38,492 nucleotides of DNA from a virus. Position numbers and translations under genes: made by a program. Shown piece after piece: positions 6,849 through 36,448 of this stretch. The DNA is taken from positions 1 to 38,492 of the IMG/VR virus record IMGVR_UViG_3300046097_000119; one strand, written 5' to 3'. How positions within the stretch are numbered: the first letter of the stretch is position 1; each line of letters starts with the position of its first letter. The notes below the pieces were generated by a model. The model was not told the DNA's origin. It saw only the letters and a list, made by a program, of their open reading frames with translations, and did no database searches.

Positions 6849-6871
6849 AGTTTTCCACACCACACCACAAG

Positions 6872-6903
6872 GCGGATACTTTTGTCAAAGTGTCCGTTTT
6901 TTT
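6872..6903 (+). terminator. Rho-independent terminator of the helicase gene
   Basis: A 10-bp stem CGGATACTTT / AAAGTGTCCG with one T.G pair and a 4-nt loop is followed by a run of seven T. It begins 25 nt after the helicase stop codon and separates the replication helicase from the late arm. Confidence 0.85.
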
Positions 6904-7141
6904 AATTAAAACACACTCGAATTTCGTGTCAATATATTTACAGAATCTTAATATGTTGTGAAATTAAGCCAAAACGGATACTTTTACGGACACTGACGGA
7001 TAGTTGTGTCCGTCACTTTTAGCTTTGTTTACAGGCTTAGAATTGCAATGACGGACACCTAGACACTTATTAAGGTAGTTTAGTAATAAAAGTAATAGTT
7101 AGTAAAAGCTGGTGCGAGTTGAAATTAAGTGTCAGTGTCCG
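6873..7141. repeat. Iteron-like cluster upstream of terS (GTGTCCG and CGGATACTTTT repeats)
   Basis: Within the 368-bp gene-free stretch 6849-7216, the heptamer GTGTCCG occurs five times on both strands (6890-6896, 6987-6993, 7006-7012, 7052-7058, 7135-7141). CGGATACTTTT occurs twice (6873-6883, 6975-6985). Pairs of sites form inverted repeats, such as ACGGACAC with GTGTCCGT and TGACGGA with TCCGTCA (6986-7015). No open frame of note is present. The location just before the small terminase fits a packaging-recognition (pac/cos) region; iterons for replication are the alternative. Confidence 0.6.
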
Positions 7142-7166
7142 GTGCTTTCTTTTCTTGGCTGTTTTT

Positions 7167-7183
7167 TAACCTAGGCTAGGTTA
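7167..7183. promoter_or_regulatory. 17-bp palindromic operator candidate before terS
   Basis: TAACCTAGGCTAGGTTA is a perfect palindrome around one central base, 16 bp upstream of the extended -10 box of the small terminase gene. The position covers the expected -35 area, so a bound protein would control the late arm. The AACCTAG arm resembles the CCTAGCTATG motif within other promoters of this phage. Confidence 0.6.
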
Positions 7184-7198
7184 GTGAAAATAGCGATG

Positions 7199-7207
7199 TG
7201 ATAGACT
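7199..7207 (+). promoter_or_regulatory. Extended -10 of the late (terS) promoter
   Basis: TG-A-TAGACT ends 9 nt before the terS ATG. No -35 consensus is seen at the right distance, so the promoter probably depends on the extended -10 or on an activator at the palindrome 7167-7183. Transcription would start within about 2 nt of the ATG. Confidence 0.55.
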
Positions 7208-7216
7208 TTCGATAAT

Positions 7217-11993: not shown

Positions 11994-12005
11994 GATCTAG
12001 TGGCC

Positions 12006-12060
12006 TTATGACACTGGACTTGGATTAACTCAGCTGATTAATTCAAGTCCAGTGTCATAA
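12006..12060 (+). other. Long RNA hairpin upstream of the scaffold/capsid genes
   Basis: Arms 12006-12022 and 12044-12060 are perfectly complementary over 17 bp. A G.U pair (12023/12043) and a further 5-bp ATTAA/TTAAT extend the stem to 23 bp around a 9-nt loop containing CAGCTG. The one imperfect pair is G.U on the transcribed strand and would be C.A on the other, so RNA structure is the likely function. There is no T-run, so it is probably a processing or stability element (RNase III type), not a terminator. Confidence 0.7.
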
Positions 12061-12087
12061 GCACTGAATTCTTTTATAAAGGAAAAA

Positions 12088-13968: not shown

Positions 13969-13976
13969 TTTCAATC

Positions 13977-14072
13977 ACTCCACTTTCTAAGTGGGGTATA
14001 GCATGTGAATGGTCGATAACGTGGCGCTCGTCACATCACATGCTGCACTCCGCTTGGAAAAAGTTTAAGCGG
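13977..14072 (+). other. Three-hairpin structured RNA after the capsid gene
   Basis: The 142-nt gap after the capsid gene contains three successive inverted repeats. ACTCCACTT/AAGTGGGGT is at 13977-13997 (one T.G pair), AGCATGTGA/TCACATGCT at 14000-14008 and 14036-14044, and CCGCTT/AAGCGG at 14050-14055 and 14067-14072. No T-run follows, so it is not a standard terminator. It may stabilise the capsid mRNA 3' end, partly terminate, or be a separate RNA. Confidence 0.6.
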
Positions 14073-14110
14073 TAAGTGGTTTATCAGCCCTCTTAATTTA
14101 TTTAAGACAA

Positions 14111-34677: not shown

Positions 34678-35001
34678 CTATTTAAGTAAGATATCCACAT
34701 CTTCAGGCTTCTTCACAACCAAGTATTTTCCACCATTTCGAATGCACCTTTTCTTAAAAAGTATCTGGTGTTCAGACATGCGGTCATTGCCGGCTTTTAT
34801 CTCAATACCTACAAACTGACCACGGATGATACAAATGATGTCTGGCACCCCCTTCATGCCGCTGTGTGAGCGATATGCACCATAACCACTGTTTAGCTTA
34901 GGATCAAATATCGGTAGATTGTTTTGCCGCCAGAAAAAGACACCGGCTTCAGTCAGTTTTTTTACTACTTTGGCGGTCAGCTTGTTGGCTGGTGTACTCA
35001 T
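34678..35001 (-). CDS. VRR-NUC / Holliday-junction-resolvase-type nuclease
   Basis: A 107-aa PD-(D/E)XK nuclease domain, with GVPDIICIIRGQFVGIEIKA (51-70) supplying D54, E67 and K69, and SEHQILFKK (Q79) the helix that follows. Size and motif order match the small VRR-NUC family of phages, which cut branched DNA. It could resolve replication or recombination intermediates before packaging. Its start overlaps the stop of the 189-aa gene (ATGA), so the pair is coupled. Confidence 0.85.
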   Translation of the reverse strand: MSTPANKLTAKVVKKLTEAGVFFWRQNNLPIFDPKLNSGYGAYRSHSGMKGVPDIICIIRGQFVGIEIKAGNDRMSEHQILFKKRCIRNGGKYLVVKKPEDVDILLK

Positions 35002-35564
35002 CGGTGTATTCGTTTCATCATGTGTAATGGAATGCCTTTAGCCGCGGCTTTATAGGCAAGCATTTCAGCTGGTCGTAAGAAAATCATAGACATATCTATT
35101 TCAGGAAATGGAATAGCTGATTCACTAACAGCTTCAAAGTCGATATTTGGTAGTCCAATATCAGCCGGACATATCCAAGTGCGATTGGTGTCAGATTTCG
35201 GTGTCAGGACCGCACATTCTCTATACCAAACATCGTTTTCTTTTTTTAAGCCGCTTAGAGGGCAAACTATGGCGTTGAAAAAAGGGCTTGTTTTAAGGGT
35301 TATTTTGACAAGGCACTGTTTTGCCGGCTTTTTCGGTACTGTTACTTTTGGAACAGCTTTATAGTAAATTTCTTCTTTTTTTGTACGTTGCGTTACCTTT
35401 TTATGCCGGTGAAGCTGTGCCATAGCTGCTTCAAAAATATCAAGGCTGATATCTTTTTCAACCGCAACTGCTTCAAGATCAGAATAGGAAATTTCATCCT
35501 TACTGTTTTTAATTCGTGTAAGAATCTTTTTTGCCAGCAAGTTTGAATCTGTTTTCCAATCCAT
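34998..35564 (-). CDS. Hypothetical protein, 188 aa, start codon in RNA hairpin
   Basis: The ATG at 35564 gives MDWKTDSNLLAKKILTRIKN. The N-terminal 70 residues look like a winged-helix fold (ISYSDLEAVAVEKDISLDIF, MAQLHRHKKVTQRT). The rest contains ITLKTSPFFNAIVCPLSGLK and ICPADIGLPNIDFE. An ATG 12 nt upstream is less likely. The start codon itself is part of the base of a long RNA hairpin (35562-35636), so translation may be structure-controlled. It is coupled to the VRR-NUC gene. No family recognised. Confidence 0.7.
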   Translation of the reverse strand: MDWKTDSNLLAKKILTRIKNSKDEISYSDLEAVAVEKDISLDIFEAAMAQLHRHKKVTQRTKKEEIYYKAVPKVTVPKKPAKQCLVKITLKTSPFFNAIVCPLSGLKKENDVWYRECAVLTPKSDTNRTWICPADIGLPNIDFEAVSESAIPFPEIDMSMIFLRPAEMLAYKAAAKGIPLHMMKRIHR

Positions 35565-35721
35565 AGTACGTAACAACCAATATCAGGCAAATGAGTTTTG
35601 TGACGAAACGAACTCCTTTGGTTGCTACGTACTATGTCCAATCCGTTGCACTGTCTATTTTGCGTTGATTCGCGTGGAGAACTCCCACCAATAGACAGTG
35701 CAACAGATTAGACTGTTGCAC
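35562..35721 (-). promoter_or_regulatory. Structured RNA leader with competing hairpins
   Basis: The whole gap between the SSB-like gene and the 188-aa gene is structured on the minus strand. Hairpin 1 has 18-nt arms at 35562-35579 and 35619-35636, with one G.U. Hairpin 2 has 23-nt arms at 35637-35659 and 35690-35712, with two G.U; its loop holds two smaller stems (GCG/CGC and GTGG/CCAC), giving a three-way junction. All three imperfect pairs are G.U on the transcribed strand and A.C on the other. A third pairing, GTGCAACAG with CTGTTGCAC (35698-35706, 35713-35721), excludes hairpin 2. Hairpin 1 includes the start codon. It resembles an attenuator or riboswitch-like switch. Confidence 0.75.
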
Positions 35722-35728
35722 GACTTAA

Positions 35729-36448
35729 TTAAAAGTCATCATCATCGCTACTCTTTTTTTCTTTTTTAGCTACTGCCTTTTTCTTTGGTGCCTCTTCTTC
35801 AGCTTCTTCTTCTTCAGCATCATCAGATGCATCAGCTGCTTTAATCAGACCAGCTTCAGTTAGGTAATCCATCAACCATTCACGGCGTTGTGCAAAAAAT
35901 GTTTTCCACTTTTCACTGTTGTACTTTTTCTTAGGATCTGGCATTGGAAATCCCTTGATTAGAACCTCCCATTCATCACCATCCTTGGTGGCAAATGCGT
36001 TTTCAACCTTTTCACCATCTTGCATGATTGTAAGACCACGAACCTTTTCACTCTTACCTTTTGGTGTAAATGAATATGGTGTGAAGTCCACTTCTTCATT
36101 AAGGTCAAGATTTGGTAACACTTCCATAAAGCGTTCACCGTAGTTACTTGAACAAGCGAGTGAAAGAATGAATTGGTTATCATCCTCATCTTCAAGTTCA
36201 ATATTGACATTAGTTCCGTAGTCACTTTCATTGAACTTTACATCCTTAATGGTAGCTACGATTCCAGGGTATGTCAGCTCATAGATGGTGTTACCATCCT
36301 TGTCTTCAACATCAACTACAGTTCCATCTTGTTCTTTTTTGGTGCGAACTTTAGCGCCTTCAGTATCTTCATCGACACGTTCGTGAAGCTTACCGTCTGC
36401 AAGAATTGTTAGATAACGCTTCTTGTCTGTATCTTTTTTTAATCCCAT
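35729..36448 (-). CDS. ssb: Single-stranded DNA-binding protein (OB-fold type)
   Basis: A 239-aa protein. Residues 55-165 form a beta-rich region compatible with an OB fold (GIVATIKDVKFNESDYGTNV, NQFILSLACSSNYGERF, KVRGLTIMQDGEKV). The last 40 residues are alternating acidic and lysine-rich, ending KKSSDDDDF. An acidic tail ending in Phe is the classic interaction peptide of SSB proteins. It coats ssDNA during phage replication and recruits partners. It has its own promoter (36508-36538), and the structured RNA starts just after its stop. Confidence 0.75.
   Translation of the reverse strand: MGLKKDTDKKRYLTILADGKLHERVDEDTEGAKVRTKKEQDGTVVDVEDKDGNTIYELTYPGIVATIKDVKFNESDYGTNVNIELEDEDDNQFILSLACSSNYGERFMEVLPNLDLNEEVDFTPYSFTPKGKSEKVRGLTIMQDGEKVENAFATKDGDEWEVLIKGFPMPDPKKKYNSEKWKTFFAQRREWLMDYLTEAGLIKAADASDDAEEEEAEEEAPKKKAVAKKEKKSSDDDDF

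Follow-up and report, generated by a model that had tools for sequence, protein, structure and literature searches.

The ssb junction and its hairpins

What is the role of two long hairpins that occupy the gap between an ssb-like gene and the gene behind it in an uncultured phage? The DNA analysed is IMG/VR record IMGVR_UViG_3300046097_000119 (38,492 bases, the whole of which is referred to here as the window), the ends of which carry a direct repeat of approximately 300 bases. The gene order on the minus strand is an ssb-like gene (35729–36448), a gene for a 188-amino acid (aa) protein (34998–35564) and a VRR-NUC nuclease gene (34678–35001; Pfam VRR_NUC, 2.8e-05), which overlaps the 188-aa gene. 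The ssb-like ORF encodes 239 aa with an acidic tail ending in DDDDF, which we take to resemble the tails of phage SSB proteins; a PHROG search with this protein gave a sole match lacking annotation, and its weak matches other than that in phage MW202577 were all from Cellulophaga phages. The 188-aa protein has homologs at 53–54% identity in MW202577 and in IMG/VR 3300023301_000035, and gave no match in Pfam and PHROG searches. A motif resembling a Shine–Dalgarno (SD) sequence was found upstream of just one of the 44 genes of the window.

The gap between the ssb-like and 188-aa genes is 164 nt long and is taken up nearly entirely by two abutting hairpins. The minus-strand fold of positions 35550–35740 was predicted at −80.2 kcal/mol against a shuffle mean of −43.1 (z −9.1). 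The window has 20 gaps that are 40 nt or longer; this one scored a z of −9.8, and z < −5 was reached by only three, namely this gap and those of the protease/scaffold and capsid/95-aa genes. Hairpin 2 (35713–35636) was found to contain 24 pairs, two of them G.U, and hairpin 1 (35636–35562) 18–19 pairs, one of them G.U; the initial annotation had counted 18 for hairpin 1, which stands, and 23 for hairpin 2, which does not. All three imperfect pairs are thus G.U on the transcript, as had been stated. The stem scores of hairpins 2 and 1 were 54 and 43.5, while a score of 40 was reached in none of 16 shuffled windows, confirming that the hairpins are real and far above chance.

Within hairpin 2, folding places the 5′ arm at 35690–35713 and the 3′ arm, designated segment C and including GTGCAACGG, at 35636–35659 (all minus strand), with two small stems in the apical part between them (35660–35689). 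The remaining structural claims of the initial annotation, namely gap-filling hairpins and two apical stems in hairpin 2, also agree with this folding. The 5′ arm includes the core of segment B (CTGTTGCAC, 35698–35706), which can pair with C in hairpin 2 or, in a competing stem that is a perfect 9 bp, with segment A (GTGCAACAG, 35713–35721), so that the two exclusive states described previously were recovered. Segment A starts 7 nt past the ssb stop codon, a position and role repeated in related phages. Hairpin 1 (5′ arm CATAGTACGTAGCAACCAA, 35618–35636; 3′ arm 35562–35580) has no competing stem, and the ATG of the 188-aa gene (35564–35562), at the end of its 3′ arm, supplies its final three pairs, in accordance with the earlier observation of a start codon within the fold.

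The same design at other junctions

The ssb–188-aa–VRR-NUC order was found in two other phages, MW202577 (Manatee Spring; L005/L026) and IMG/VR 3300023301_000035 (L018/G001), with the junction genes of both showing 53–75% protein identity to those of the window. The comparison of the ssb junction therefore covers three phages and four elements, as the relatives collected by capsid similarity (G002–G007) have no ssb or VRR-NUC gene in the sequence examined. Profile searches of GTDB genomes with ssb and capsid gave no relatives, an exact 16-mer from hairpin 2 occurred in 12 contigs across IMG/VR with the palindrome in none, and a pattern of the ssb end plus AATTAAGTC gave five matches, all unrelated. 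The gap sequences cannot be aligned across the three phages except for the first bases past the ssb stop in MW202577. Unrelated and unstructured gaps in phages carrying the same genes had been named as grounds for refuting the initial reading; the element withstood this comparison, the gaps of both relatives being of other sequence, yet structured to the same design.

This common design consists of a 6–9 bp stem A:B, the B half of which doubles as an arm of a 16–25 bp stem B:C. In each of the four ssb-locus elements, A begins 6–7 nt past the stop codon of the gene before it. In MW202577, A (ATGCCCTAC) and B (GTAGGGCAT) are separated by a TAT loop, and the long stem has 24 positions with one mismatch, its C arm (ATGCCTTAC) terminating on the ATG. 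The gap of G001 holds two elements with an 84-aa gene between them, the first lying past the ssb stop (A GTAGCGGT, B ACCGCTAC) and the second directly before the 188-aa gene (A CCCTAA, B TTAGGG). Hairpin 1 of the window may be all that is left of another complete element of this kind. The start codon is within a stem in two of the three phages and lies 1 nt outside the stem foot in the third. It should also be noted that the 84-aa gene (L018 3403–3657) is itself bordered on both sides by tripartite hairpin elements.

As the ssb elements were unalignable for a MAFFT covariation test, they were judged by their architecture and by random-segment controls. Random outer segments were as good as the observed A:B in 3, 0, 12 and 94 of 4000 cases for the four elements (3 for the window). 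Comparison of segments A, B and C between the window and MW202577 shows simultaneous differences on all three strands at five of nine positions, with both A:B and B:C pairing kept; since the elements may lack base-by-base common ancestry, this was taken to show that the architecture is maintained, and not as proof of covariation. Mutually exclusive A:B and B:C stems are kept in all four elements.

The other two structured gaps of the window lie on the plus strand, at late genes. One sister element separates the head-protease-like gene from a 216-aa gene in the scaffold position (11994–12087; z −9.9) and is present in six genomes (the window, L026, G001, G002, G004 and G007), while the other separates the major capsid gene from a 95-aa gene (13969–14110; z −5.3) and is present in four (the window, L026, G002 and G003). 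Besides A:B and B:C, these late elements have a further stem C:D and can adopt either a single long hairpin or a pair of short ones, whereas the ssb-type elements have no C:D. They can be aligned, and compensatory change on both sides was seen at six pairs of the protease/scaffold element and seven of the capsid element, which supports the long stem, although counts from only 4–6 related sequences do not amount to a formal R-scape test. In the capsid element, A varies (CTCCACTT, CCCTACTT, CCCCGCTT) with B constant (AAGTGGGG), and all of the A variants still pair with B through G.U or A-U/G-C exchanges. At the capsid junction of G001 and G004, the place of the element is taken by an intrinsic terminator with a TATAAT-like sequence behind it, which fits a role in separating the expression of neighbouring genes. 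The late-gene stems leave the downstream start uncovered. A similar tripartite hairpin was also observed in the more distant relative G006 (L042 6095–6160), with an A:B stem of 7 bp and a long arm of 25.

A number of other repeats were detected in these phages. A promoter-like box, TTGCA..TAGCTATGGTATAAT, is repeated upstream of ssb, of a 217-aa gene and of others in all three phages (window 36536–36501 and 34676–34647 on the minus strand, and 2420–2449; L005 at about 2930 and 4655; L018 at about 2410), and is probably an early promoter common to them, supplemented by a TAGCTATG motif. Clusters of direct and inverted TATCCGTCAT / GTGTCCGTCATTTT repeats (window 6849–7216; L026 13454–13616) are possibly an origin or operator. 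L026 (30162–30278) and G001 (3682–3606) also have in common long inverted repeats with GTTGCCAA-type arms and GGGTATATACTGTA, possibly an operator or bidirectional promoter.

Folding order, start-codon access and candidate roles

Folding of successive prefixes formed A:B before B:C in all four ssb elements, with B:C established by about 90 nt; the A:B of the window appeared at about 40 nt (−15 kcal/mol). The competing stems consistently draw on the long stem's outer half, and because A and D pair with outer halves, any cut in the inner half would leave pieces that refold to A:B or C:D. The upstream pieces of the ssb elements were predicted to refold to A:B at −7.6 to −14.7 kcal/mol, and the downstream pieces of the late elements to folds containing C:D. 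In the full fold, the predicted probability of the 188-aa AUG being unpaired was 0.06–0.08 in the window and 0–0.02 in MW202577, rising in the latter to approximately 0.9–1.0 upon loss of the 5′ arm (5′ ends 14–30 nt upstream). When hairpin 1 of the window was cut in the model, the first base of the AUG alone opened, and in G001 the AUG was mostly unpaired before any cut (0.80–0.96), with the preceding 20 nt about 8% unpaired. With SD motifs so scarce in the window, a buried start is expected to be strongly blocked. SD-less translation is known to be readily blocked by structure, with a −5.2 kcal/mol structure giving five-fold lower expression in Prevotella (PMC3155529).

It is suspected that these are RNA elements of operon junctions which act by being cut and refolded. 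The structure and its conservation were observed directly, while the mechanism is inferred from them, and we hold it as a leading but tentative reading. An RNase III-type endonuclease specific for double strands would cut the long stem B:C, upon which the upstream piece would refold to A:B, a 3′-terminal hairpin that would keep 3′ exonucleases off the ssb mRNA. With its partner strand lost, the downstream piece would expose the 188-aa start codon on an mRNA with a short leader; at the late elements, C:D would further cap the 5′ end of the downstream piece, and hairpin 1 could be a second point of cutting or opening, at the start codon. The duplexes are long and nearly uninterrupted (16–25 bp at the ssb junctions, 21–27 bp at the late ones), and judged on sequence these junctions do offer the near-continuous duplex of about 20 bp or more within a transcribed region that is expected of an RNase III site. 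Within transcription units, the elements come after genes for which high expression is expected (ssb, protease/scaffold and capsid), and high expression upstream with low expression downstream enters the model as an assumption. Counted against this reading are the single AUG base that the modelled cut exposes in the window and the G001 AUG predicted to be open while uncut, as well as the ssb elements having no C:D and hairpin 1 having no competing stem.

The proposals of an RNase III site and of a translation switch made in the initial annotation were both retained as candidate roles with support from the sequences, and on the basis of the folding, the buried AUG and the scarcity of SD motifs, cutting and refolding was placed ahead of a co-transcriptional or ribosome-gated switch, its main rival, and the switch ahead of a passive barrier. 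For the switch, the nascent A:B would be displaced by B:C, closing the downstream start, and termination of ssb translation would leave a ribosome covering A and shift the balance in the manner of an attenuator (1:2, 2:3, 3:4). The predicted order of folding, the placement of A just past all four stop codons and the buried AUG in two phages agree with this, and metastable hairpins formed during transcription have a precedent in aapA3 of Helicobacter pylori (PMC6733600). It was nevertheless judged unlikely, as the ATG of the window lies in hairpin 1, where A:B does not affect it, the late-gene stems leave the downstream start free and the G001 AUG is mostly open. More doubtful is a passive mRNA barrier, with a stem that guards the upstream 3′ end or insulates neighbours and neither switches nor is cut, and with A:B as a mere folding aid: the site directly past the stop codons of presumably abundant proteins would suit it, as would the terminator that takes its place in G001 and G004, but it leaves unexplained both the recurrent perfect A:B and C:D stems and the packing of the start codon into a stem in two phages.

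A palindrome acting at the DNA level (an origin, a nick or recombination site, or a product of template switching), with the RNA folding incidental, was considered because near-perfect inverted repeats adjoin replication genes and because A and C are direct repeats, a possible outcome of template switching. A palindrome is expected to lack strand preference, and the long stems of the ssb locus contain ten G.U and no A.C pairs on the transcribed strand (nine plus one in hairpin 1), along with two mismatches of other kinds, which upholds the initial suggestion of selection on RNA. Over all listed elements the ratio is 30:10, a count that includes untrimmed stem ends, chiefly of one capsid element. 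With the design also present at structural genes and compensatory changes in the late elements, this reading is disfavoured and quite improbable. The ligand-responsive riboswitch of the initial annotation, for which two exclusive states ahead of a start codon would speak, is not supported and is very improbable: the hairpin sequences are unrelated in the three phages, no aptamer-like single-stranded core is conserved and the design recurs at several functionally unrelated genes. The Rfam search proposed with it gave no match for the element at the gathering cut-off, and at a lax cut-off returned only models of microRNA precursors and a single HIV stem-loop model, each falling far short of the gathering cut-off and none credible. 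Autoregulation by SSB was rejected as a general explanation, the same design being found at capsid and protease genes. A:B of the window was flagged as a terminator candidate with only TGTCTATT after it, and was rejected as an intrinsic terminator or transcription attenuator since no U-run follows the corresponding stems of L026 and G001; true terminators with T-runs lie elsewhere in the window (14800 and 33284). The elements are thus probably RNA devices of gene borders, of a cut-and-protect or on/off type, and not small-molecule sensors.

Relation to known systems

RNase III processing sites are present in phage T7 and in bacterial operons, and those of Escherichia coli have reportedly been surveyed. 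The phage elements resemble such sites in being long intergenic hairpins of polycistronic phage mRNA with a sequence-independent duplex of about 20 bp; they differ in that one arm of the long stem also belongs to a short neighbouring stem, that at the ssb locus the start codon can join the stem and that cleavage is only inferred. Attenuators of the trp/ermC type use overlapping segments 1:2, 2:3 and 3:4, the complete set of which has its equivalent at the late elements, but here a whole upstream gene takes the place of a leader peptide or stalling signal and the ssb stems of the relatives have no U-run after them. In E. coli, operon stoichiometry is known to be set by an endonuclease cut and a protective 3′ hairpin (PMC10667835), and the phage elements likewise combine an intergenic cut, as proposed, with a 3′ stem-loop that would set gene ratios; in that system, however, the RNase E cut and the stem-loop are at separate sites, whereas here a single sequence would serve for both by folding in two ways. 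As in the type I toxin mRNAs aapA3 and hok (PMC6733600), a short hairpin formed during transcription is predicted to give way to longer-range pairing, although the phage element lies between operon genes and is not known to involve a toxin or antisense RNA. Processing can also activate an mRNA that its own folding keeps closed (PMC11228461). The component parts, namely RNase III-type sites, protected operon processing, metastable hairpins and activating processing, are therefore of known kinds, while a limited search of the open-access literature returned no account of a series of phage junction elements that use one sequence for both folds, the duplex to be cut and the hairpins guarding the ends.

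It is possible, though doubtful, that this is a lineage-wide system in which key operon junctions each carry one RNA with a dual job, first as a cutting duplex and then as two protective end-hairpins with a freed start. Searches for RNA families by sequence would miss such a design, as the letters at the ssb locus are not conserved. Cutting and refolding would be a compact and testable arrangement: if true, a single cut sets stability on both sides and activates translation in a phage independent of SD sequences, and it would show how an SD-less phage makes the proteins of one operon in very different amounts through RNA folding alone.
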